Below, one piece after another: positions 6,001 through 62,900 of a stretch of 64,000 bases of DNA (position 1 is its first letter; every line of letters begins with the position of its first letter). The stretch comes from Cloeon dipterum (lineage: Eukaryota > Arthropoda > Insecta > Ephemeroptera > Baetidae), in NCBI RefSeq assembly GCF_949628265.1, contig NC_088786.1:4216001-4280000 (forward strand), read 5' to 3'. Under the pieces are notes generated by a model. The model searched no databases. It was not told the DNA's origin and was given only the letters and a program-made list of their open reading frames with translations. Made by a program: the position numbers and the translations under genes.

Positions 6001-7916
6001 AAGCGCCACCGGGGGTAAAAGTAAAAATATTGCAAGCGGGGGCGAACCGGAGCAGCTCGTTTCTACGCCTGCCCACCGCGCGACAAGAAAATTGCTGTTT
6101 TGCAACCGGTGTATATGTGACAGCCGAGAAATTTGCATGCACGTATCGTAGGAGACGGCGGAAGCTAGCAAAGCGACAACCTGACGTGCGCTTGACAGAC
6201 GAAGATATAATTTATAAATAAACTGTTGCCTACTCAAATGTCGGCCGGGTAAGGCTGGAAATTGCGATCGTGGGATTTGGCAAAATAACGCACCGAGAAT
6301 TTTTGTGCTGCACTGCATATTTATGCGTTCAGAAGGAGGCCATCAAATTTATGGGCAAACGTAAATTGCTTTACATGCGAAAATACAGTGATTTAAAAAT
6401 TAGGTTGCCACCGAAGTGAAAAATTGCTCTCAAGCTATATTATTAGCAATTTTGCACGACTCGTTTGTGTGTTAATTTAAATTCATATAAGGACTCGATT
6501 TCATGCCAATATATTTTATAGCCTGTGCGCGTGTTGTCGCACCTTGCAATTTTCCTATAGCCGCTGCTGCCGCTTTTTTATATTAATTCTTTATTTAACC
6601 TTTTAAGGGCGTTGCGAGATTAAAACGAGTGTGAATTTGCATTTCAGATCATTACCACCGGAGGTGTGACCTACAAGAACGAGCCGTGGCACCGTGAGTG
6701 CTTCACCTGCACCCACTGCAACACCTCGCTGGCTGGACAGCGCTTCACCTCCCGTGACGAGAAACCCTACTGCGCCGAGTGCTTTGGAGAACTGTTTGCC
6801 AAGCGCTGCACGTCGTGCAGCAAGCCTATCACTGGTAATTAATCTCTCAAAAAAGACCATCATCCCTCAATTAGCAATTTAAGCGGTGCCTTGCTAAGCA
6901 ATTTATTTATTTGCTGAGGCGAAACTCATGCAAATCACTGTAAATCCTTTAGTCCCATGGAATAAAAACGAATTATTGCTAGAAGTCTCAGCTGGGTGAT
7001 TTTGGCGGCTGCTAGCTGAACCGCGGCAGCCGAATTTTGCACGGAGGCTGGAGCGGCTGAAAAAAATTCAAAAGTGAAATTTGATAGTTCTTAACGGCCT
7101 GAAGGGACGGAGACCAATTTTTTCTCCTGCACTTTTCAATTTTTACATTTGGACCAGCGGCTGGAGCAGCGTATCCAAAGTCAATATAAAATTTGGTTTA
7201 TAAATTGTTAGTTAACGACAGTTAAGAACATTTTTGCATTGTTGACTATAGCAATTAGTTCATTGAGTTTATTGTTTGTGAAATTTAGCAACAGTTTATC
7301 TCTACACTGAGCAATAATTAATTCATGACCGAGGAACAGTTAATCTCAGATTTTGCAAATTCCTTTTGGCGAAATATATAATGATTTATGTACAATATAA
7401 GGATACAGTGCTCGCCGCTTGATAAGCATGCTCACTTTTGAGCTGATGTTTAAGATATTTAAAAGGCAATACCCAGATGGGAAATTCTTAATTTTTTCCA
7501 AATTTTTAGAAACTATTTCGAGTAAAGGTAAATTGATTTTTCACGAATATTCTGTAAACCTTAGACATCTTATTCTTATTGCATCAACTGAGAACAATGT
7601 TGCTTAATTTAAAAAAAAAACGCTTTTTCTATTCAAGCTTCACCAGACCTAAAAAAATCGTGAAATTAATTATTGAAACATTGTAAATGTTTATTCTTTT
7701 TCTCTAAAACATGTACTTTTTGACTGCAGTAGACTTACTACGTTATTTATATTTTTAGGAATTGGTGGAACGAGGTTTATCTCGTTTGAAGATCGCCACT
7801 GGCACAACGATTGCTTTGTGTGCGCCACTTGCAAGTCGTCGTTGGTGGGTCGCGGATTCATCACCGACGGTGACGATATTATTTGCCCAGAATGCGCTAA
7901 GCAAAAGCTGATGTAA
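1..7916 (+). CDS. Lmpt: Multi-LIM-domain protein, Limpet/FHL type (5' end outside window)
   Basis: Visible coding exons are 1-108, 4912-5081, 6648-6834 and 7759-7916; all joins keep phase (1, 0, 1). They encode the end of one LIM domain and three further LIM domains with regular zinc-ligand spacing, for example C-x2-C...W-H-x2-C-F-x-C. The last exon ends ECAKQKLM and then TAA at 7914-7916. FHL/Limpet proteins are LIM-only adaptors of muscle and cytoskeleton with roles in transcription and sarcomere assembly; that function is inferred from the family. The reading frame is open at base 1, so upstream LIM/PET exons lie outside the window. The terminal ATG-TAA is followed by GT, so GTAAGT at 7912-7917 could serve as a donor to a further exon, but none is recognisable downstream and FHL proteins end at this place. 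Introns are 4.8, 1.6 and 0.9 kb. Family call is secure; the exact orthologue is likely. Confidence 0.88.
676..719. repeat. Perfect 11-bp inverted repeat, potential hairpin
   Basis: GGTATGCAACC at 676-686 is repeated in inverse at 709-719, and inside the 22-bp spacer there is a second short inverted repeat (GTCAG/CTGAC). It lies in an intron of the LIM gene. The 44-bp unit is shorter than a usual pre-miRNA. Function unknown. Confidence 0.5.
1921..2134 (+). CDS. Lmpt: Alternative first coding exon of the LIM gene
   Basis: An ATG at 1921 in a good start context (caacaATGgcc) opens 71 codons, beginning MATSSFNSKINLRLSNTK, that end at a CAG|GTAGG donor at 2134 in phase 1. That is the same phase as the exon ending at 108, so it can splice in frame to the exon at 4912. 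The stretch is GC-rich with coding-like third positions, unlike the surrounding intron. A transcript starting here would replace everything upstream with a 71-residue leader and would drop the first zinc-binding Cys pair of the LIM domain completed at 4912, leaving a half LIM plus two full LIM domains. The leader matches nothing I recognise. It could also be a cassette exon, but the in-frame ATG favours an internal promoter. Confidence 0.6.
5171..5199. repeat. Perfect 13-bp hairpin with 3-nt loop in LIM gene intron
   Basis: AACTGGTGCCTTA at 5171-5183 and its exact reverse complement at 5187-5199 are separated by TTC, about 90 bp after the exon ending at 5081. The flanks add an imperfect extension of the stem. 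The loop is very short for a microRNA precursor. It may be a transposon remnant or a structured intronic site. Confidence 0.5.
7222..7570 (+). mobile_element. TTAA-flanked MITE-like repeat, copy 1
   Basis: This AT-rich stretch in the last LIM-gene intron is related to 51617-51989, 60238-60676 and the reverse strand of 53257-53960. Shared landmarks in order are a start at TTAA followed by TTTTTGCATTG, GACTATAGCAA, a GAGGAACAGTTAA...CAGATTTT block, a GCCGCTTGATAAGCATGC block shared with copy 4, and a right end near TTCTGTAAA. The right terminus is degenerate. No coding capacity. It is non-autonomous. Confidence 0.7.
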
Positions 7917-22097: not shown

Positions 22098-22412
22098 TTT
22101 CTTAATTTTCTAAGCAACCCCTGCTAATTACTCAAATCAGGAGGTGTCGAAACTGGGCAGTTTTCAATGCAAAATAATTAAACGATTTTCCATTCAGTCC
22201 AGACCGATTGCTTATTTTTAAAACCTTACAACATCGCCGCAATATTAGTCTAGATTGAAAACTCTCATAATTGTTAAATTGCTTTATTTCCATTTCATCT
22301 TTTAACAGTGATCATATTTTTAGTTGCTCCATAGTCCTTGTAACAGAATGCTTAGGTCGTGTAAATTAGCAGCACACAAATTGACAAAGACCATTTGCTC
22401 GGGTGGTTAAGT
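22098..22412. other. Convergent 3' UTR interval of USP16/45 and hexamerin A
   Basis: A gap of 315 bp between two convergent stop codons. On the minus strand AATAAA lies at 22283-22288, about 125 bp past the hexamerin A stop, and is its probable polyadenylation signal. No canonical AATAAA for the + strand gene is seen before this point, so the two 3' UTRs may overlap. Confidence 0.5.
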
Positions 22413-25383
22413 TTAAGCACGGTTGATCTCTTCCAGAGTCTTGTGGAAGATGATGACATCCTTGAAGAAGATGTTGGGGGTGTTGAAATCGTACTCGCTG
22501 ATCTTGCGGTCGAAGGGATAGCCGAAGGGCTTGACATCAGGGTAGACGCGGTCGTAGGCGCTGCAGTAGCCCAAGCTGAAGGTCTTGGATTCGGTGGCGG
22601 TGCTCTCATAGGGGCTGACCATGACAAACAGGGAGAAGGGCATGCCTCCCTTGCGGCCTCTGGGCAAGAGAAGGCGCTCAGGGAATCCGCAGTGGTAGGT
22701 CTGATGCAACAAAAAAGTGATATAATGGAAGTGTACGAGTTGGTTGTTAGTTACCTCTTCCTTGTACAAAGTGGTCTTGCCTTCGATGGCCTCCTCAACC
22801 TTCTCAATCATGCTCTTGGTGGACCATTCGTCTTTGTAGGTCAAGAAAGCATCCTCAGATCTGCGGGTAACGACGGTCTTGCCAGAAGTCACTGTAATAA
22901 AATATTATATATCGAGTAAATATTTGCGCACAGTTACAAACAGTCAAGAAACTTACGAGAGTATTTGAACTTGTCCATCTCGATCATCTTGGTGCGCTTC
23001 TCGTTGAGGGTGAGCTCCTTTCCATAAACGTCGTATTTGGGTCCGAGGAAGACGCGCACGATGACATCCTGTTCCTTGTCAGAGGTGACCTCAAACTTGT
23101 AGTTGAAAGGCTTGTGGTTGAGACGGGGCACGCGGTACTTGATGTTGACGTTCTTGTCGGACTCGTAGGTGCCGGTGAACACAGAGTACAGGTCAAACTC
23201 GAAGTCTTCGAAGTAGGTGACCAGCTTGTTATCGACCTCGACACTCTCAACCTTAACGCCGGGGAAGACGAGATCCTCGCGCTTGTAGGGGGTGAGATGC
23301 TCCTTGTACTTGATGAAAAGCCTGTTCACACTCTTGTGCAAGCTGTAGAAGGCCGGGTCGCGAGGGGCAGTCTCAGCGTGCTCGAGAAGGCCAGGAGCAG
23401 CCTAAAATTAATTTTTGGCATTGATTATGTCAGCAGGAACGTTAGAGAAATAATTACGCCAAGCTTGTGCAGAGGGTCAACGATGTGGCTAACAAGAGCA
23501 AAAGCATAGGTGGTCAGGTTGCCGTAGTAGGTGGTGGGTACATCAGGGAAGCCATGAATGAGGCGTCCAACCCAGTCGATGCCCTTGTCATCCTTCAGGC
23601 TAATCTTGGTTCCGTCACGCTAAAGAGGAAGCATTACGTTCTCGTTAAATTAATGCTCTGAATTTCCTAATTGATCATCAAATCATTTTATTTAAAAAAA
23701 AAGATTTACGTCAAAGAAGTATCCCAGATCAATGGCCTCGCGGATTCTACGTTCATAGTCAAGGACATCTTCGACAGTCATATCTTCAAGATCTTCCATC
23801 TTCATGTTTTCAGGGCGGACAGGGAAATCGACACCATTCATGTAGCCTACGTGTGGAACATATCCAGTCTGCAATGTAAGATTTGAACATTTCCCAGTAT
23901 TAAATCAAAGCGTAAAATAAATAAAAATCTGATTTATAATCATTTTGTTGTATTAGAAATCAATTTGGCCGTTTTTAGAAGTTGAATCCTACAAGAAAAT
24001 GAGGAAAATTATATTCATTAGCATCCTAACGCATGCGGAGACAATTCGAGATTGCACGTGTTTTTCGCGCCTTGATTTTTTTAAAATAGGGGAGAGGGCT
24101 CGAACCTATTGCAAGTCTTAATATTTTTTCTCTTTGACGCTAATATGTAGCAATAGTGAACAAAGAACAAGACAGAAGTCATGAGCGTGAATTAAAAGTT
24201 CCTCACCGGGTTTTAACTCTCGCACTCACCTTGACAATATGATTAACAAAGTCGATGGGTTCAGTCTCAGGCAACCAGTTTGCGAAGCGCTCCAGGTCGT
24301 AACGGGCCAGCAGCTGGTCGTAGATCCAGTAGTAGAGCTCACCCTTGCGGTCCAAGGTAAGAGAGTACTTCTTGGCGTCCATCCAGAAGGGGTACTCGAG
24401 CTGGATGAATTTGTTATGCATGCTAATGCCCAAGTCCTCACTAAAGTAGGCAACGCGCTGTTCGAAATCGTGCTGGTACCAGAACTCGGTGTAGTTGCTG
24501 ACGGGGATGCTGACGGTGTAGTCAGGGGTGTTCTTGTGGTTCATGTACTCGTGGTAGGCCTTGAAGACGACCTCGCTGTCGACGAACTTCTGGGGGAAGA
24601 TTTCGTAGAAGGGAGGCAGAACAATGCCACGCATATCGGGACGGTGGTAAACGGCGACGCTGAGGGCGTAAACGAACACGTATTCGTTGACGCGATCGCG
24701 GGCCCAGCAGGCGACCTTGTAGAGGGTTTCGTAGTCCTTGGCGAAGTAGAACAGGTCGAACAGCTTGATCATCTGCTTGCGGTGGGGCTCATAGAACACG
24801 GAGAAGATGTCGCCGCGGGGCAGCATACCCTTCTTGTACGCGATCAGGAAGTCCTTAACGTACTCCTTGCTCTTGTACGATTCAATGTCCTCCTCAAGCG
24901 TGTAGCTCTTGCCGACCTCGACCTGCTCGGTGTAGGTGTTGAAGTCCTGCACGCGCCAGAAGAGCTTCAGCAGGTTCTTCTGAACGCTGAGAAGCTCAGG
25001 GGTGGCAGGGGTCCTATCTGTAGGGGGTATTTGAGTGATGTGAATTTTTTTCCCTAGATGACAAATTGGGCACAAAATTCGTGTTTTGTCTGATTGGATA
25101 AATCCATTAGTGCCAATAAAGGAGGAGCACACGAGGCCATCGTAATTTCATTCGAATATATTTGAATTAAAACCAATTTGAAAATACTGTAAAATTTAAA
25201 TTTTGAAATTAAATATCGTCGTTCCTTTTATAAAAATAAATTAAAAAAGTAAAAATAATTTGTAGGATCCAAGGTTTAAACACTTCTTCAGAATATAAAA
25301 GGCTGCTTACATGACTTCTCGTCCACAGGGACGGCCATGGCAGCGGCCACAGCTACCGCCGCCAAAAGGAATACAGCCTTCAT
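22413..25383 (-). CDS. Hexamerin A (arylphorin-like storage protein)
   Basis: Seven exons on the minus strand (25311-25383, 24230-25017, 23710-23868, 23458-23619, 22957-23401, 22755-22891, 22413-22700) join to 683 residues. The signal peptide MKAVFLLAAVAVAAAMA is followed by hemocyanin-type N, M and C domains. The hemocyanin copper histidines are not kept: the second-site equivalent reads EDLGISMHNKFIQLEYPFW, without the H-x3-H ligands. The protein is therefore a hexamerin (storage, amino-acid reserve) and not an oxygen carrier. Exon 2 is rich in Tyr and Phe (about 17% in the paralogue), as in arylphorins. Hexamerins are made in fat body, secreted as hexamers into haemolymph and consumed during moults. 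It has a TATA box 58-65 bp upstream of the ATG. It is in tandem with hexamerin B, same strand, 1.6 kb away. Confidence 0.93.
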
Positions 25384-25440
25384 GTCGTCGTTGCTTGCCG
25401 GTTCAGTGAGGAACGAGGGCGATTGTGGCTGATGATCGCC

Positions 25441-25448
25441 TTTTTATA
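25441..25448 (-). promoter_or_regulatory. TATA box of hexamerin A
   Basis: TATAAAAA on the minus strand, 58-65 bp upstream of the ATG. The 5' leader between it and the ATG is nearly identical to that of hexamerin B (CGTTCCTCAC...CCGGCAAGCAACGACGAC). Confidence 0.8.
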
Positions 25449-26996
25449 CCAATACGATGTGCTGATAATAATGTGTTAAGGTGACCGCTATGACATTCAC
25501 TGGAACGGATGAAGCGAAATGCATGAGTTCAACTGCAGGGTCAATTTACCACCGACTTTTATTTCACTGCTGAATTTCAAATTTTTATGTACAAGAATTT
25601 TTTACGATGCCACGTCCTCTCGATTTTAAAAATATTCAAATCTTACGCAGAAGTGGCATATGCTTTTTACTTTTAATCAAACAAAAATTTAAGCAAATTT
25701 TTTTCATTTGAATAAAATTATAAAATGTGTTCGTATTTATTTTAGCGAAATTAATTAAAGTTGAATGAAAAGGTATAAAAATAGTGCTACGAAAATTTTT
25801 AAATCTAAAATAGAATTCGCCTTGTGGTTATTATTTGGATTATAGTAAAATAAAAACCTGATTGATCTATGCCTTGTCTACTGTTAGATTTCACCTTAAA
25901 ACTTTTAATTAATTGGTTGCAAGCTGCCATGCCGTATTGATATAAAAAATAATAATAATTAACTTATTATAATATTGTTGAATAACACTGATGGAACGCA
26001 ATCAACACAAATTATTGTTTGATAATAAATAAGAATAACAAATTAATCATTTTTACGCTTTGTAAAAGCTATTTGTGCAGTATGAAGATGAAGCGTAAGA
26101 ATACCAAAGCACGTGTCGTATCGTTTAAAATCTATTGAATGATTCTTTCTACTTTTCCTTCCTTGAGAAGTGTAAATTTAATCGTCTTCTTGTTGATTTT
26201 CATGACTGGGTTGGCCTGATCCTGAATAGTAAATCAATCATTTAAATATGCAAGTTTTCTTAATATTTTAACACTGTAAACCGACTCTTAACACGAACAA
26301 ACCCTTCTTGATAAACTTTCAATTACTGTTATTATGTAAATTAATTTCAAATCTTTCATGTTGATATTTTTAACGTCTGGGTTAGCGCATATATTTTTAC
26401 TGTAGACATATATATTTTTTATTTGGTCCCATCCGAGGCAGTGAGTGCATCAAGTCGCGCAATGACTTATCAGAGACCGCTCCGCTGCAAAATGTTTATA
26501 GAAAGAGAGGAGAACCCAATTTCCTGAATTATTTCCTTAAAAAAAATTTGCATCTATAGTGAAATTTTTCCAGGTCGAGGCTCATTGCTTTTAGACAGCT
26601 TGCGAATTTTTATTTCTTTCTTTTTAAGATTGCCATAGTATCTTTTTTTTCTTAAAATATATTTGTCCACTACCTGCAGGATTTTTTGTACTTAATTTTT
26701 CTTCAATTATATGACAGTAAATGCTTATTAGAGCCCAATATATTCTGAAGAACAAAAATTTATGATGTGAAGATACTTCGTTTAGGTTCGTGTTTTAAAA
26801 AAGCACGCTGGATATTAAGAAAAGTGTTTTATTTTTTTTTATATTTGTGTACAAAACAAGAACATTGAAATGCCTGTTTAAGACAGACAATCAAATCGCG
26901 TGTCCAGTAAACATTGCGCTTTGGTCGTATAAATTAGCAGCATAAACAATTAAACAGTCTGGCTCAGGTGTTAGAGGTGTAAAAATTGTTCGCAAC
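25449..26996. other. Intergenic region between the hexamerin genes
   Basis: About 1.5 kb of strongly AT-rich DNA without recognisable coding sequence. It should contain the hexamerin A enhancer/promoter sequences and the 3' UTR of hexamerin B (minus-strand AATAAA at 26828-26833). I see no transposon similarity in it. Confidence 0.5.
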
Positions 26997-29645
26997 TTAG
27001 GCGCGGTTGATCTCTTCCAGAGTCTTGTGGAAGATGATGACATCCTTGAAGAAGATGTTGGGGGTGTTGAAATCGTACTCGCTGATCTTGCGGTCGAAGG
27101 GATAGCCGAAGGGCTTGACATCAGGGTAGACGCGGTCGTAGGCGCTGCAGTAGCCCAAGCTGAAGGTCTTGGTCTCGGTGGTGGTGCTCTCATAGGGGGT
27201 GACCATGACGAACAGGGAGAAGGGCATGCCTCCCTTGCGGCCTCTGGGCAGGAGAAGGCGCTCAGGGAATCCGCAATGGTAGGTCTGCAGACAAAAAAAA
27301 TGTATTAATTTATAGAAATGATAAAACTAAATAAATTTACCTCGTCCTTGTACAAGGTGGTCTTGCCCTCAAGAGCCTCCTCAACCTTCTGGATGATGGT
27401 CTTGGTGGAGAACTCGTCTCTGTAGGTCATGAAAGCATCCTGGGAGCTGCGGGAAACGATGTTCTTACCGAAGGTCACTGGAAAAAAACACTAATGTAGT
27501 CAAAGCGCTTGGAAAAATATATTCAGAACTCACGAGAGTATTTGAACTTGTCCATCTCGATCATCTTGGTGCGCTTCTCGTTGAGGGTGAGCTCCTTTCC
27601 GTAAACGTCGTATTTGGGTCCGAGGAAGATGCGCACGATGACGTCCTGTTCCTTGTCGGAGGTGACCTCGAACTTGTAATTGAAAGTCTTGTGGTTGAGA
27701 CGGGGCACGCGGTACTTGATGTTGACGTTCTTGTCGGACTCGTAGGTGCCGGCGAATACGGAGTACAGGTCAAACTCGAAGTCTTCGAAGTAGGTGATCA
27801 GCTTGTCGACCTCAACATTCTCGACCTTAACGCCGGGGAAGACGAGATCCTCACGCTTATAGGGGGCGAGGTGCTCCTTGTACTTGATGAACAGCTTGTT
27901 AAGGTTCTTGTGCAGACCATAGAAGGCAGGGTCGCGGGGGGCAGTCTCAGCGTGCTCAAGAAGGCCAGGGGCAGCCTAAATATCACATATTTAATATTTT
28001 TATATTTATGAATTGTATTAATTTACGCCAAGTTTGTGCAGAGGGTCAACGATGTGGCTGACAAGAGCGAAAGCGTAGGTGGTCAGGTTACCGTAGTAGG
28101 AGGTGGGCACATCGGGGAAGCCATAGATGAGACGACCAACCCAGTCAATGCCCTTGTTGTCCTTAAGGGTGATCTTGTTACCCTCGCGCTAGAAAAAATA
28201 AAACCGTTATTTAATTTTAGTTATTTTTATAAGTTCGATATTACGTCAAAGAAGTATCCCAGATCAATAGCCTCGCGAATCCTGCGCTCGTAGTCGAGGA
28301 CATCCTCAACAGTCATATCTTCAAGATCTTCAATGTGCATGTTGTCGGGGCGAATGGGGAAGTCAACTCCGTTCATGTAGCTGACGTGAGAGTTGTAGCC
28401 GTGCTGCGAAAATTAAGTCATAAAATCAAATTCTGAATATTTTAGTACAATTTAAAAGCAATACCTTCACTTCGCGGTTGACGAAGCTGATCTCCTCAAT
28501 CTCAGGAAGGTAGTTAGCAACACGCTCCAGGTCGTAACGGGCCAGCAGCTGGTCGTAGATCCAGTAGTAGAGCTCACCCTTGCGGTCCAGGGTAAGAGAG
28601 TACTTCTTGGCGTCCATCCAGAAGGGGTACTCGAGCTGGATGAATTTGTTATGCATGCTAATGCCCAGGTCCTCACTAAAGTAGGCAATGCGCTGTTCCA
28701 AATCGTGCTGGTACCAGAACTCGGTGTAGTTGCTGACGGGGATGCTGACGGTGTAGTCAGGGGTGTTCTTGTGGTTCATGTACTCGTGGTAGGCCTTGAA
28801 GACGACCTCGCTATCGACGAACTTCTGGGGGAAGATTTCGTAGAAGGGAGGCAGGACGATGCCACGCATATCGGCACGGTGGTAAACTGCGACGCTGAGG
28901 GCGTAAACGAACATGTATTCGTTGACGCGATCGCGGGCCCAGCAGGCGACCTTGTAGAGGGTTTCGTAGTCCTTGGCGAAGTAGAACAGGTCGAACAGCT
29001 TGATCATCTGCTTGCGGTGGGGCTCATAGAACACGGAGAAGATGTCGCCGCGGGGCAGCATACCCTTCTTGTACGCGATCAGGAAGTCCTTAACGTACTC
29101 CTTGCTCTTGTACGATTCAATGTCCTCCTCAAGCTTGTAGCTCTTGCCGACCTCGACCAGCTCGGTGTAGGTGTTGAAGTCCTGCACGCGCCAGAAGAGC
29201 TTCAGCAGGGTCTTCTGGACCTTCAGAAGCTCGGTAGTTGCAGGGGTCCTGTCTGTATGGGATATTAAAGTGATGTGAATTTTGTTAAGAAACGATCAGA
29301 AAAATAAGGAAAACTCTTTGACCATAGTATAGTTGCTCTGCTGATCCGCAATAAAAAAATCACTTTGAGTCTAGTATAGGAACTTAAAAAATCGAGAAAT
29401 AATATCTTCAGACGCAGTTAAAAGCCACAATATAGTGCTATGACATGGCCTCATACTATAAAAAAATTATTATATAAAAAGTATTATAAAAGTGCGTTTG
29501 AGAATTTGTACTATTTCCGTGGTTAACAAATTTATCCCAAAGAGCAAATAAGATAGTTAAAACAAGCCTTACAGGTCTTCTCGTCCACAGGGACAGCCAT
29601 GACAGCGGCCACGGCGACCGCCGCCAAAAGGATTATAGCCTTCAT
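26997..29645 (-). CDS. Hexamerin B (arylphorin-like storage protein)
   Basis: Seven exons on the minus strand (29573-29645, 28465-29252, 28245-28403, 28027-28188, 27534-27975, 27341-27477, 26997-27284) encode 682 residues. Each exon has the same length and phase as in hexamerin A except exon 5, which lacks one codon. The signal peptide differs by a few residues (MKAIILLAAVAVAAVMA). Exon 2 (262 codons) and the C-terminal exon are almost identical to those of A even in nucleotides, whereas the introns share little. It has the same loss of copper ligands and the same Tyr/Phe richness (45 of 262 residues in exon 2). Role as for A: secreted hexameric storage protein. Its promoter is squeezed into the 346 bp between its ATG and the dynein stop codon. 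Confidence 0.93.
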
Positions 29646-29703
29646 GTCGTCGTTGCTTGCCGGTTCTGTGAGGAACGAGGACGATTGTGGCCAAACGCAG
29701 CCG

Positions 29704-29710
29704 TTTTATA
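29704..29710 (-). promoter_or_regulatory. TATA box of hexamerin B
   Basis: TATAAAA on the minus strand, 59-65 bp upstream of the hexamerin B ATG, the same spacing as in hexamerin A. Confidence 0.8.
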
Positions 29711-29991
29711 CTGTGATCCCTCCCAAAAATTTGTCCGTGTTGCTATGGGTCACAGATAAAATAATCGCGATTGTTCATGGGTCAGTCTGCGACTTTTGAT
29801 AAAGTGCTTACTACAGTCTAATTCTCAAAGATGTATTATCGCCACTGTTTCCATACCAATTTTTTCGTCATAGAGCTCAAATTTATACGACTCTTTTTTT
29901 CTAATTGAAGGTTGGTTTTGGTTTAATCAAAATTAAATTCTGTTATTAACAATAATTTATTTATTCTAGTAATCAACGTAACAGCATATTT

Positions 29992-50874: not shown

Positions 50875-51616
50875 CTAGCGAAAATATCGTAGGAAGCGCT
50901 AGGAAAAACGCTTAAATTACAAAGTGACAAAGATGACGCTTTGATCTCAACCTAAAACTGTAACCAATACAAGAAGCATTCCTCTGCACTGCATGCAATT
51001 AAATGGTCTTAAGTCTTTTAATAAAATTATAAAACAGTCAATGTACATTATAATCGTTTCAGCAACATAATCATTTATTTGCCTATCTCAGAAAACTTAC
51101 GCGGAGGTTGAAATTATTTGAGTTTTGGCCCATACAATTTTTGCTGTGCTGCCTGTTTAAGTTCTGATTCTTTTTTGCTTCATTTCACATGTGATTTCAA
51201 CAGTTCCTGGTAAATTGCTTCGCATTTTGCCTTCCGTGACTTCCTTTGATTTTAATTTGCTGTTGTAATAACGCGAAACGTAGCGCATGAGGTGTAATGA
51301 CAAACGAAACTGTTTTAGTACCATACATATTTATTGCAGTTTTAACTTTTGTAAGTACGAGTCTAGAGAAATGAAACCCACATGGAACTAAATTCAAATT
51401 AAAAAAAACTATATGATTTTTCACTCCTTATTGCTTTCCTGTTAACACGTCGTGGAGTATAGCCATTTGATAGTTTCTACACAAATATTAGAAAATAGAT
51501 TTTTTACTTTTCATGTAAAATATCGCACCATCATCGTGAACAAATAAATGATCTGTAATGTTTGTGTGAGGGATTTTTAAAAGAATGAGGTGCTTAGCTT
51601 TTCGTCAGGCCAACAA

Positions 51617-51989
51617 TTAAGAAAATTTTGCATGGCTGACTATAGCAAGTAGTTCATTCAGTTTATCGTTTGTGGAACAGTTTATCTCTAAAATGTGCAA
51701 TAGTGAAAACAGGACCGAGGAACAGTTAAATATCAGATTTTCTCGAAAATTTAAATGAGTTGTTTCTTGATTTCGATCTTTCTCGTTGCAATCGATCTAA
51801 TGTTGTGCCAATTTTGATAAAAATTCCCTAAATTGTGAAATAAATCGTGGTTGTTAGGTAGCAAATTTTGTAGCAGAAATATTAACGGCAGCCTGTGAAA
51901 TTGTTAGCTTTTTCTTAATTTTCAGAGAGTTTTTCAAGTAAAGGAGTAAAATGGATTTTTCACAAATTTTCTGTAAAGCTTCACTTTAA
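51617..51989 (+). mobile_element. TTAA-flanked MITE-like repeat, copy 2
   Basis: Begins at TTAA (51617-51620) followed by GAAAATTTTGCATGGCTGAC and ends CTGTAAAGCTTCACTTTAA with TTAA at 51986-51989. It shares blocks with copy 1 (AGTTCATTCAGTTTATCGTTTG, GACCGAGGAACAGTTAA) and copy 3 (a TCCCTAAATT block and the right terminus, one mismatch). About 373 bp, without coding capacity. Confidence 0.75.
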
Positions 51990-52285: not shown

Positions 52286-53256
52286 CTGCGGCGGCCGCTG
52301 TGTCAGGCTTGTGATATGCGCTTGCACGAACAATAATCATGCTGCCCCACGCACACACCTCGCCTCCGAACAAACAAATCTGTGTATCGTGCGGCCCCCG
52401 ATATCGGCCCTGCCTCTTGCATGCATCGTTCCAGGCACACTTCGTGCGAACGCTCGCTCTGGCCATAAAGTTCGGAAAATTCGGAAGTTTTTTTTACTTT
52501 AACGTTTGCAGCCTTTTATGGAAAGTCAAATGAAAATGAATTGCCACATATGGTGCTAATTCAACGCAAAAATATGGGCGCCGAAAATTTGGCTTTTCAA
52601 ACCGTCTGTTGTCACGCAGACATTGAAAGGTGTTGATTTGTTACCAAAGTGCCTGATGGGAGTCATATCACGAGTTGTACTTTTTTAAATGGATTTATTG
52701 GGTGCAATCTTGAGCTTAACACTTTTTAAACTCTATTCCTAATTCACTAAATCCTTTTAAATATTTGGAGTTAGGAGGTGGAAATTAAACCTTGCGGGAT
52801 TTTCAACAAATTCTTCTCTTTATACGTCAGTCACTTGGCGACTAATTCTAACAGAATACAAGGACCTTTAAACAGAATTGATAAACGACTTTAGAATTGA
52901 CAATTTTAAGAGATTTGTCTTGAAGAACAATTTAAAATTAGAAAAGAATTTACCCGATTGAGCCGGGTCCTTCACAATTAAACGCTCGGAACAATTAAGA
53001 TGCGACTTGTTGGCTTCAGTGTCCGGCGAAAACTAATTTAAATTCAAAATCTCTCTCTGTTGCATTAACGAGATTCTAACAATCTCATGAATAACAATAC
53101 CCTAGACTAAAAATGAAAAAGGAGTGGGAGCTCGGCTCCGCAACCACTACAAATACATATATTGGAAACCCCGAAATTCGTGCTGGCTCTTATAGCTCTT
53201 TCGTTTTGGTTGGCAAAGAGCTATATTTTCTTCATTCAATACCACATTGTTTAATT

Positions 53257-53960
53257 TTAAAATTAAGCTTTATAGAATATTTGTGAACTCTCCTTTTTAC
53301 CTTTACTTGAAATACGATCTAATATAATTAAGAAAGAGCTGAAAAATTTCCCAAGTAGCCGTTTAATTTATTTAGAAAATCGGCTCCAGAGTTTGCATGC
53401 TAATCAAGCGGCGAGCATTGTCTCTTTATTGGAAATCGTGATTCATTTCGCCAGAAGGGAAATTTAGCTCATAGATTGCACACCATTGGATAGATCACGA
53501 CAAGAGGGATCGAAATCGAGTGAAAAAATCATAGACAAACCGTTTAATTTTTCGAGAAATTTGGGAAAATCTGAAATTTAACTGTTTTTACGGTCCTGAC
53601 GATTGGACTATTCCACATTGCTGTAACAACTAGTTGTGGATTGCGATCAGGAAAATAGCGAACACACGTAAAATAAAAAAGCAGATTATTATTTTAAACA
53701 AACTAGCGATAGCATCTTAGGAATTTTGCCATTATCTGTCAACTTATCAAAAATTCAGCTGCTATTCAAACTTTATTGAAAGAGTTTGTTTAAAAAAATT
53801 ATGAAAAAATCATCTGTTTTTTTACGTGTGTTTGCTATTGTTCTTATCGCAATCTACAACTTGCTTTTACATTGTAAAGATCCAAAATCTCATTTTTTTA
53901 CAAACAATAAACTCAATGAATTACTTGCTATACATAGTAAACAATGCAAAAAGTTCTTAA
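53257..53960 (-). mobile_element. TTAA-flanked MITE-like repeat, copy 4, split by a nested element
   Basis: Inverse orientation to copies 1-3. The 3' terminus in the forward sequence starts TTAA at 53257-53260 followed by AATTAAGCTTTATAG (12 of 15 match the copy 3 terminus). The other end (53890-53960) reads ACAAACAATAAACTCAATGA...CAATGCAAAAAGTTCTTAA, matching the reverse complement of the start of copy 1 and ending in TTAA. About 260 bp in the middle (53622-53881) is foreign. Without it the copy is about 445 bp, close to the 439 bp of copy 3. Confidence 0.7.
53622..53881. mobile_element. Nested short inverted-repeat element
   Basis: The left arm (about 53622-53690: TGTAA...AGTTGTGGATTGCGATCAG...GAACACACGTAAAA...CAGAT) is the approximate reverse complement of the right arm (about 53811-53881: CATCTGTTTTTTTACGTGTG...TTATCGCAATCTACAACTT...TTACA). 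The arms are about 60 bp and the centre is AT-rich with no coding capacity. It interrupts MITE copy 4, so it inserted later. Foldback/TIR type; superfamily unknown. Confidence 0.65.
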
Positions 53961-54124
53961 TTGTTGGCCTGTAGAGCTCTTATTATAGTATAGTATTGTA
54001 GTCACTTTTGCACACTGATGAAATTTTTAATGTGTGTTGGACTAGACTCTAATTATTTATTTTTTTGAACTATGTATTGAATTGGCTAAATTTGCAATGC
54101 GCAACAAATCTTCAATTTCAAAAT

Positions 54125-57803: not shown

Positions 57804-59952
57804 TTCGGCGGAGAAAAGTCGGTGTTAGTGTGACGCAGACGGCGGCGCCGGAGACAATGTATAATTTTCCGTATTCGGCTAAATTATCTTTTCCATGGCA
57901 CCGTGCGTCTTCCGCCGCTGCCACCGCCACCGCCGCGACTTTTTCCCTCCCTTGTTTCTTCTTCTTGATTTGGCATTGTAATCAAAGGAGGGAGATGATT
58001 TATGTTTCTCTGGCAGCAGTCACGAAACCGAATGAGACTGCTTAATCGCCCGCCCAACTCGCTGCCAGTTCGTCCCCGTCCGCGCGTGCATACGCGGCTC
58101 GCGGTTCACGGCTCGACCTTTGCGGCAGTGACAAAACGCCGCAAAATAAATGTACATCGTCAAGCCTATTCAATTTTACTTTCATAATATATTACTCATT
58201 CGATTCGCAGGAAGCAACGGTTGCTAACAAGAACATGTAACAAGAAATTAATAATATTAGCAACTTTATCTATTTTATTTAACTCAAACCTACTTGATTA
58301 ATCATATTAACACACCATTCAATTTAGTCAAATCAAAACTGGTGGTTACAGTTTTTTTTTAAATTTGGGATCAAATTTGCTTTATTTATGTTACATAAAT
58401 ATAGTCTTTGGAGAAAATTCATAAATATTTTAACTCATCCTTAATTTAATTTTTGCCTAAGTAGTTCCTATGATCTCGATTTTTTTATGAATTTGAGCTA
58501 AATTTTATATTGCCTAAAAACTATTTAAAAAGAAATGATTCTGCAAAATCCTGGAAAATCTTTGTTGCCATTGCATGAACTCATCCCTTAGGATTCAGTT
58601 GAATCCAAAATTGACCTAAGCAGCACTGTACATTTATTAAAAAGTTGATGCAAAGTTAGCATGCTTTTCAAAAAATGGTGAGGACTGTCTCCTTACTTGA
58701 AATCCTATTTTATTTAACAGCAAAGACGGCACGTGACATCGACGGATCAACTTTTTGTTTCGGGTGATTATGCAGTTACTGCTTCTCATTTTATGCCATT
58801 GTTCATGAAATTTTTTTTAATTGACTGAATTTTATATGTATGAACAATAAACAATGACATAAAAAAAAATAAACAATGATTTAACGAGTTTCCCTAAAAG
58901 GTTTCATAAATTGTTGGACAGATCTCTAAGAGAGGAATCGGAATCCGACAAGAAAATGTGGTCAAGCGCTGTAAATGTTTAAAGCTATGATCTGAAATTT
59001 GTCCATCTTAAATTTTCCCTGCATCTAATAATTCATAATTTTTGTTAAAAAATCTATTAAATTTCTAATTTTTAATACTGGTATTATTCTAATGTTGTAA
59101 AATTACCGAGACAATTTATAGACTGCTGATTCGCCTTTATAAACCACAATATCTTGTATAACTACTCATTAATTTTAAGTACAAGAGCAATGTTTTATTC
59201 ATTTTTGTTGTTGTTAAGAAATAATTATTATTGCTTGAAAATAGATCATCTTTATGTATTTTAACAGAGTGTTGAATTTCCCGGCTTTTAAAATCAAATC
59301 CTTTACTAGAGAACAACCGTTACATAACCGATTCGCGCTATTCTTGAACCGGTTATAGAGTTTTGTCGGTGAAACAACTGTGGGTTGGGATCGTGGGGAT
59401 CCATTGAGAGATCGAGGCGAGAAGAATCAAATGAGTGCGGAAGCAAGCTCGTAATTTTCAAGATTACGTTGGATTTTGTCTTATGTAAGTGAATATTTGG
59501 ATTGATTGTGCATTTCCTCCGACGTTTTAAATTGCGTCTTTGCTTGCACGGCCGTGAAAAACCGCGGGCAGGCCGATATAGAGTGTATGTTTATTTTCTG
59601 CACTGATGCCCGCACTTCCTACTCTGAAATAATTGATCGATAAGCTGCGTTTATTTATAAACTCGGCGTCCATCCACCAAATTTGCATCTTGCCCCCATC
59701 CTAATACTTCACCCTGGACCCAAATTGTGGTTTCCAACGCGGTGCGCCTCCATTTCCGGCCCTAAATTTGTCGAGTGAAAAGTGAAAGTTATGGATCTGA
59801 GCAATTATTTTGTTTTCCACGCCAGCTGATTCTCAAGGACTCGAACTTTGCCTTCTGCGTATCAGTGATTTATTATTTCCAGGCTATCGAAATTATGTCA
59901 AATTAATTATTGCACGTTGAATATTTCTAGTTGTCCACTGCTGCTGCCTTGC
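57804..59952. other. Intergenic/promoter region between the dynein-side exon and DCAF11
   Basis: Includes a GC/CpG-rich block at about 57830-58150, next to the minus-strand ATG at 57803, that resembles a promoter or 5' UTR. The rest is AT-rich up to the DCAF11 start; the 59,280-59,800 part is GC-richer and may hold the DCAF11 promoter and leader. No recognised gene. Confidence 0.4.
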
Positions 59953-62900
59953 ATGGGATCGTCTTCATCAAGATCCAACTCGAGAATGGATGAAACCAGT
60001 CCGAGCAATGATCGAAACAGCGGAGCCCCAGCAGCTGAGCAGGACAACGAACAGGACGCAGATTTAGCCACTATTCTGCAGTTCCTTATCAGAAGGTTCT
60101 TTACTTATAGACTTTATAGTACTTGTTTTTCTCCTAATGTTTGGTTACGTAATAATAATTAAACTAAGATTTCCTTCTAAATTTTGATATTATTTTTGGT
60201 GGCAATTTTCAACCATATTACTTACTGGAAACTCTTTTTAAAGTAAAGCTTTACAGGACTATTTTGCATTGTTGACTAAAGAAACTAGTTAATTGGGAAA
60301 ATGAGCAACAGTTTGATTTCAGATTTTGACAAATTTCTCGAAGAAATAAATATTTTTTTAGCTCTAATTTGATTTATTTTCATCGCGATTTATCCAATAA
60401 TGTGCGAATTTTGAGAAAAAATCCCTAAATTTTGATGATTTTACAGCTTTACTAGCATGCAAACGTTTGAGCCGATTTTCTCAAAATTTAAACGGCCCCA
60501 TCTATGAATTTTTTTAGCATTTTCCTTGTGACGTGGGTGTCTTGGGGATGATGCTTACGTTAATTAACCCCATGCACGCCAGTTCCAGCCTTTCTACATC
60601 GAATAGGATGGGTGCATCCTCATTTTTAAATAGTATTTCAAGTAAGGGTAAAATTTTCTGTAAAGCTTTACTTTAAATTCGAAAAACCTGCTCGTCGGCA
60701 CTCGGCTGAGCAAATCCTTTCCAAATTGCAACCAAATAAATTCTCTGTCTCTAGTGGCCAAATCCATATCATAACCGCGGAGCACGAAGAAGTGGACGAC
60801 GAGAACGTTGTGTCTCCTCCCAAGATCAACGTCCAGCCCAATACCGCCGTTCTTGATGTGCGTATTTGATGGTGAAAGTGCTTTTCATTAACAATGCCAT
60901 CTTGTTCGCATGAGCAGAAGTGCGAGTTTAGCATGAGGACCAAAATTGAGAGTGGCGTGCAAAGGAGTGGATCCGGGATGAAGAGACCAAACTCTATTCC
61001 ACTGCTTTTGCAGAGTCGAGAGGTCGGTTTTTATTTCTTTTCATTGCTAATATATGTATAAGTCTATATTTTTAATTGCTAGTGTGCTAGCATTAAAATT
61101 TTTGTATCAAATCTACCATTATTTAGCACTATTGTTGTTAAAGTTATGAGGAAAGTAATTTTTTTCTTCTGAGAAAAATATTGTCCTTTTAGCAATGTAT
61201 TATATTTTTTTAGTATGGAATGCTTGGCCAAAACTGTTTCTCAAGTGGAGATCGCTGCAAAATATTCAACAATTTCCTGCCTAACACACTCGATGTTGTA
61301 CAAAATTATCACAACAAAGCATTCTGTGGTACCTACTCAAGAGAAGGCGAATTCTTCTTGAGCGCTTGTCAAGGTTTGCCTGAATAATCTTGTGACTACA
61401 AGATTACATTTTCCAATTTCAGATCGCAATTTGCGCCTGTATGACACTAAAAATGGGCAGTTCAAACTGCTGAAAACAATTCAAGCCAGAGACGTTGGTT
61501 GGAGCATTTTGGACACCGCGTTTAGCCCCGATGGCACTCACGTTGTCTACTCGAGTTGGTCGGAATGCAGTGAGTGAACTTTGTTACCAAAGTCTTTTGA
61601 AATTGCTCACTTTGCCTTCGTGTGCAGTTCACATTGTAAATTTGTTTGGCGACACCGACAACCAGGAAGCACTGCCTTTGAGTCCTGATGATCGAAGGTT
61701 TTGCATTTTCTCGCTGGCGTTTTCAAATGATGGCCAAAAGATCCTCGGTGGAGGAAATGATGGATACATCTATCTGTACGACAGGGAATGCCAGCAACAG
61801 TGTCTTAGAGTAAGTTCTGTTTTTTTCAGCCCGTTTTGTTTGGAATTTTTTACTTTATTAAATTTTTTAAGAGGAATTTCTATGACAGCGGGATTATCAA
61901 TTTCGTTGCTCGTTTCTCTTTTTGTTTGCTTTCAAAGAAGAGTGCAGGCAAACGTTTTCAAAAATACCTGATTCTGATTCAGAATTCCCTGCAGCTGTGA
62001 ATTTTTTTAATATCATTTTCTTTTTATAATTTTTCGACCTATTAGCCTTCCATTCTTATGGAAGCTGCCAATTAATAAATAAATCACCCCACCAATGGTT
62101 AAAATGAGAGTTATGTTAAAAAATAATTTTTATTTTCGAAAGTCGGAAAATAAATTAGATTCTTGTCTAGTTTTGACCAACTTACTTAAAAATGAATTTC
62201 CCAGATTGAAGGGCATGAAGATGACGTTAACTCCGTCGCTTTTGCTGATAGCACTTCTCAAATTCTGCACAGTGGGGGAGACGATGGACTTTGTAAAGTA
62301 AGTCAAGAGCTCACATTAAAACAATCACGATTGAAATCTATTTCGTGCTTCACAGGTGTGGGACACGAGGACACTTAGCGAGACCAACCCAAAACCTGTC
62401 GGCGTGCTCGCGGGGCACATGGACGGAATCACATTCATTGATCCTAAGGGTGACAGCCGACACTTGATCACCAACTGCAAAGACCAGTCTATCAAACTGT
62501 GGGACATCAGGGTGTTTTCCTCTGAAAATGGGCAAGACAACACAAGACAAGCAGTCATGGATCAAAACTGGGACTACCGGTGGCAGCGAGTGCCAAAAAA
62601 GTGTATGTATTGCTCTCTTTTGACGTGGTAGAATGCATGCGGAATTTTGCGCAAGTCATACAAAGTTTTTTGCCAAATTCGTAGCAAAGTGTGCTCTGGG
62701 AAGATAAATAATTATGTTTATGCTGTATAGTATGCAAAAGTCGTAATTTTGAGGCAACAACTGCATGAACTGCCCTTCCCCCCTCAGATTAAGAAGTCAT
62801 CTGATCGGATCTTGCAACTTTTTTCTATTTGACCGGCGTCTTGCGCAGCTAAGCTAAAGTCATTGCGGCTGGTTGCTGAACATTTGGCACCTCAAATGGC

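Follow-up and report, generated by a model that had tools for sequence, protein, structure and literature searches.

Duplication of a TTAA target is common to two transposon superfamilies, piggyBac and Kolobok (PMC9587614, PMC10140906), which are separated in the account of PMC9587614 by the 5'-RR...YY-3' termini of Kolobok. The Xenopus T2-MITE/Kolobok elements, as presented in PMC6004289, combine a TTAA target, terminal inverted repeats (TIRs) tabulated as starting with AG, and many short non-autonomous copies with THAP-DDE genes in the same genome, THAP plus DDE being the layout given there for Kolobok. In iMITEdb, Kolobok is one of 16 superfamilies to which the MITEs of 98 insect genomes, with a mean length given as ~386 bp, are assigned (PMC5199201), and the KolobokP repeats described in PMC9587614 are ~450 bp long, with short TIRs and RR...YY termini. 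The bee piggyBac elements of PMC10140906 have a TTAA duplication and TIRs of similar length to those analysed here, and end in CAC or CCC, whereas DINE-1/INE-1 of Drosophila, likewise abundant, short and non-coding, are described with TT insertion and subterminal repeats (PMC2374699).

Here we describe two related repeat families, A and B, from Cloeon dipterum, which resemble the Xenopus elements in their TTAA target, AG-starting TIRs, numerous short copies and accompanying THAP-DDE genes, but differ in that their termini read AGTRGA and AGNGGAAT rather than the AGGRR given for T2 in PMC6004289, and in that no link between terminus and transposase was found here. DINE-1 was rejected as a model because A and B have terminal repeats and TTAA instead of TT and subterminal inverted repeats. 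Our literature search yielded no paper that we recognised as describing the A or B sequences, within the portions of text that it covered and short of proof of absence, and Rfam at gathering scores gave no matches in the window.

The window, that is, the whole 64,000-nucleotide stretch analysed (C1:4216001-4280000), belongs to a genome searched as 190 Mb in 10 contigs, five of them large (33-43 Mb). Its four repeats are copies of one non-autonomous, TTAA-bounded transposon of ~445 bp, family A, laid out as follows.

7196..7570, plus strand: family A copy 1, with a degraded left terminus, the right TTAA gone and an internal deletion
51584..51989, plus strand: family A copy 2, with the right TIR and its TTAA, and a degraded left TIR upstream of the start initially annotated
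53257..53987, minus strand: family A copy 4, with the right TTAA kept, a recognisable left TIR (TAATAAGAGCTCTACAGGCC) and an insert that splits the copy
53620..53868, no strand: insert in copy 4, 249 bp, with inverted repeats of ~55 bp (84%)
60238..60676, plus strand: family A copy 3, with TTAA at both ends and the 15-bp TIR intact

That these four repeats form one family, with interior blocks in a constant order, had been proposed in the initial annotation, and both points held. All four were detected by a profile of 36 genome copies, of which copy 2 was one and the other 35 lie outside the window; the best piece of each window copy reached E 1e-38 or better. Copy 2, as a member of the training set, matched at 51604-51988 (E 1.4e-98); the copies outside that set matched at 7216-7383 (E 1e-38) and 7368-7563 (E 1.9e-23) for copy 1, 60239-60526 (E 8.5e-46) and 60617-60675 (E 2.6e-6) for copy 3, and, on the minus strand, 53628-53258 (E 8.5e-74) and 53982-53869 (E 6.3e-17) for copy 4. 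The relatedness of the window copies is far above chance. The perfect 15-bp inverted repeat of copy 3, set within TTAA at both ends, was likewise confirmed in the sequence, and the right terminus is indeed common to copies 2, 3 and 4, while copy 1 lacks the right TTAA. Copy 3 itself has two deletions, one of ~13 bp immediately internal to the left TIR and one of ~65 bp further inward, and ~90 bp at 60527-60616 have no match to family A. The 249-bp insert in copy 4 is probably another MITE, of which the DNA compared held no second copy. Judged by eye, a short duplication may flank this insert.

Several observations lie apart from these families. Tandemly duplicated DNA with a spacing of ~4.2-4.6 kb occupies positions 22350-29711 of the window and includes two hexamerin-like frames (Hemocyanin_N, Hemocyanin_M); dynein heavy chain frames were also seen. 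By eye, C2 at its start and C4 at its end (L107, L114) have one AT-rich satellite in common, and another recurs where C1 and C5 start and C2 ends (L106, L110, L112); none of three telomere motifs formed arrays at the ten contig ends.

To define family A genome-wide, we aligned 36 distinct blast matches that stop no more than 45 bases short of either query end. The majority left end of these near-full-length copies is TTAAAGTAGAGCTTTACAGGCCAACAATTAAGAACATTTTGCATTG and the right end CTGTAAAGCTTTACTTTAA; several single copies have degraded ends, and agreement at the flanking positions beyond TTAA never exceeds 54%. TTAA was intact at 22 of the 39 left and 27 of the 42 right ends scored, counts biased upward by the choice of ends through a similarity that included TTAA. 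Both a lack of TTAA boundaries and homology running past the ends were looked for, and neither was found. Family A is short and non-coding, with terminal inverted repeats, many copies and a target duplication, as expected of a MITE. Its predicted abundance was borne out by 545 termini with at most two mismatches, 63 of them exact; the reversed pattern, used as a control, gave 41. The two DNA searches scored 40 places each, out of 313 and 768 candidates, so that copy numbers are lower bounds. In the first DNA search, 39 of the 40 scored places fell into C1 1.2-5.0, C3 34.2-36.7 and C4 25.8-27.9 Mb, with one on C2; the second set of 40 was somewhat wider, also including C2 12-14.5 and C5 4.6 Mb. 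Because 39 of 40 scored places sit in three blocks, four copies per 64 kb is above the genome average, and the window over-represents the family. The 36 copies diverge by 17.1% on average from their consensus and by 29% from each other. Its movement ended long ago, and the family is now extinct or close to it.

Beside copies of family A, weaker matches revealed a cousin, family B (442 bp), which has the same layout and termini TTAAAGTGGAATGATACTGG and TTAAAGAGGAATGATACTGG. Exact 20-mer ends number 509 and 505, or 1014 altogether, while the reversed control has none, and 2764 candidate places were found, with whole-length matches of 96-100% among the 40 scored. In a sample of 22 copies (20 scored places plus two in L085, one of them the query), which is biased toward close copies, mean divergence was 2.0% from the consensus and 3.4% between copies; TTAA was intact at 20 of 22 left ends and 20 of 22 right ends, and at both in 18 of 22. 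The A and B consensuses align end to end and are of nearly equal length (445 and 442 bp) despite strong divergence. From these sequence comparisons, family B appears to be a much younger sister of family A that moved recently and spread widely in the genome. The window holds one old copy, outside the four originally annotated.

58525..58979, minus strand: old family B copy, in pieces 81-82% identical to the consensus, split by ~160 bp

At four places, family B copies lie directly against one another or against a relative that has diverged further (C3:6991279-6992156, C3:9408424-9409180, C5:24805404-24806226 and C1:36401946-36402770), and three of these leave no space for a second TTAA between the copies.

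We searched for empty sites by joining the flanks of a copy over one TTAA and comparing the product with other DNA. For the family B copy in L092, the joined flanks matched L081 at 93% straight across the junction (269 columns, with 4 gaps elsewhere) and a stretch of the window at 92% (271 columns, with 6 gaps elsewhere), and both carry a single TTAA at the junction.

52863..53131, minus strand: uninserted paralogue of the family B target (L092), 92% match, one TTAA

In L087, a family B copy interrupts a family A copy at a TTAA. Thirteen family A copies with both ends, tested against the DNA compared, yielded no empty site, and the TTAA target duplication is shown by single-TTAA empty sites for B and by boundaries alone for A. 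A further dispersed repeat occupies ~52763-53151 of the window; its identity to L081 and the L092 flanks is ~91-94%.

The initial annotation had read the repeats as a TTAA-bounded, abundant MITE with the right terminus given above, which stands, and had pointed to piggyBac, a reading weakened by the ends. Inside TTAA, both consensuses read 5'-AG...CT-3', in agreement with the RR...YY termini of Kolobok and not with the CCC or CAC of piggyBac, and we consequently rejected piggyBac as first choice; the TTAA duplication is equally at home in both superfamilies. Family A is likely to be an old, non-autonomous Kolobok-type cut-and-paste MITE. A piggyBac-type MITE, with the same TTAA target and a piggyBac transposase acting on unusual termini that start with purines, is unlikely but has some support: besides the common duplication, a KolX-like protein (see below) is also noted in a few piggyBac families in PMC9587614, which shifts the balance slightly from Kolobok towards piggyBac. 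Against it, both families start with AG, unlike the CCC/CAC of bee piggyBac (PMC10140906), and RR...YY is the very feature by which PMC9587614 distinguishes Kolobok from piggyBac.

Candidate transposases in the genome are in keeping with the Kolobok reading. Six candidates gave five matches to PF20700, which Pfam names 'Mutator', with E values from 1.5e-6 to 4.9e-6 and open frames of 409-420 residues.

C3:16504420-16508500: PF20700 locus
C2:28053000-28056413: PF20700 locus
C3:11486000-11489390: PF20700 locus
C1:35012446: PF20700 locus
C1:38379886: PF20700 locus

The genome has 29 THAP matches, and each of the five loci has one of them 0.8-0.9 kb upstream on its own strand, albeit a weak one above the cut-off (E 5.5e-4 to 8.4e-4). 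At C3:16505 kb, a THAP-like first exon lies within 900 bases upstream; its 32 residues alone have no Pfam match. A frame on the opposite strand there matches P2RX7_C (PF20478) at E 6.6e-7, and the P2X7-like domain PF20478 is the KolX of the Kol0 lineage in PMC9587614. A PDB search with this frame proves nothing, since P2X7 appears at no better than E 0.57 and ranks below an unrelated kinase (E 0.2). From the THAP and KolX-like neighbours, we infer that PF20700 marks Kolobok here; our literature search found no paper joining 'Mutator' PF20700 with Kolobok. Three copies of the transposase element, on two chromosomes, are ~100% identical over the 500 and 240 bases compared. The THAP-like first exon and the opposite-strand KolX-like frame were seen in L116 and L117 (C3:16504880-16505779). 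As PMC9587614 places Kol0 in vertebrates, annelids, cnidarians and sponges, a KolX-like frame in an insect may extend the range of that lineage.

A Kolobok transposase would, by these sequence features, be the mover of A or B. Among the ends examined, we found no autonomous element bounded by the termini of A or B (TTAA-AGTRGA... or TTAA-AGNGGAATGATACTGG), and none of the 63 exact A termini lies within 10 kb of the five PF20700 loci. Within 10 kb of the two C1 loci, the B ends comprise an ordinary MITE (35007315-35007757) and a lone end at 35021397. The 152 exact B ends on C1 form 40 consecutive facing pairs within 12 kb, 39 of which span 421-525 bp. The remaining pair, 7.8 kb apart (L085), was rejected as an autonomous candidate, being two MITEs with no frame longer than 134 residues.

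Across heavy divergence, A and B retain nearly the same length and are homologous from end to end around a shared core, much as KolobokP repeats conserve theirs. This raises the improbable thought that the whole ~445 bp, and not the termini alone, is the mobile unit under constraint, either with an interior carrying sites for transposase or host factors, or with A and B as solo units of an unseen composite arthropod Kolobok lineage. Highly improbable is the more specific proposal that A and B are long terminal direct repeats, standing alone, of a composite transposon resembling KolobokP. Their near-equal lengths and end-to-end alignment would suit it, and in size and TIR length they agree with the published repeats, which PMC9587614 describes as ~450-bp terminal direct repeats with TIRs of up to 18 bp, often found alone. 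That source, however, gives KolobokP a composite architecture and duplications that span 3-5 bp and are not tied to TTAA, one kind of junction having TATA, and its authors detected no KolobokP in arthropods. For the 87 exact B left ends on C1, an excess of direct pairs, as such elements would leave, was rejected: 3 same-strand pairs lie 1-6.5 kb apart, against an expected 4.0 with strands shuffled and 2.7 with positions jittered.

Within the preferred reading of A as a Kolobok-type MITE, its left end needed correction. Copies 1, 2 and 4 had been taken to start with a different left end, TTAAGAA, from which followed the suggestion of two left-end types, or of terminal conversion in copy 3. In the 36-copy alignment, the majority left end is single: the true end, TTAAAGTAGAGCTTTACAGGCC, begins 27 bp upstream of TTAAGAA, which is internal to the family from position 28 and was rejected as a terminus. 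To the left of it, copies 2 and 4 run on as CAGGCCAACAATTAAGAA and copy 1 has decayed, so that all three carry degraded true ends upstream. Copy 3 departs from the left consensus at a single end base (AAAG in place of AGAG). Since the true left end starts 27 bp upstream and copy 3 is one base off, terminal conversion is not needed; a single G-to-A substitution would suffice to explain its perfect palindrome, and conversion of that one base from the right end could have given the same result. The variant end TTAAAGTAAAGCTTTACAG has 24 exact matches in the genome, against 0 for the reversed control, and is also a left end in L063, where the left-hand interior of family A comes next, and in L078 and L084, where a more diverged form follows. 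Two terminal subfamilies, or an inverted repeat of copy 3 gained by terminal conversion, are extremely improbable. In their favour, AAAG is the state of the right end, and the A base occurs in 24 of 63 exact termini and in those three further left ends; against them, the copies have one common left end upstream of TTAAGAA, which already contradicts the version with two ends.

Because no A or B termini were found tied to a transposase, we infer the enzyme and the cut-and-paste chemistry from the elements themselves. A DDE transposase supplied in trans would bind the inverted termini, excise the element and join it into a TTAA site, duplicating the TTAA; the family A wave would be old and ended, and its sister B active recently. 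This is ordinary MITE biology, in which the left end is now corrected, the superfamily more probable than before and a young sister documented. An abundant repeat lineage has thereby been given correct termini and a more probable classification, and the old wave (A) is separated from the recent one (B). For annotation, TTAA by itself is no proof of piggyBac. The three copies of the THAP-PF20700 element, near-identical over the stretches compared and with a KolX-like frame in the one inspected, make recent Kolobok activity testable in this genome.
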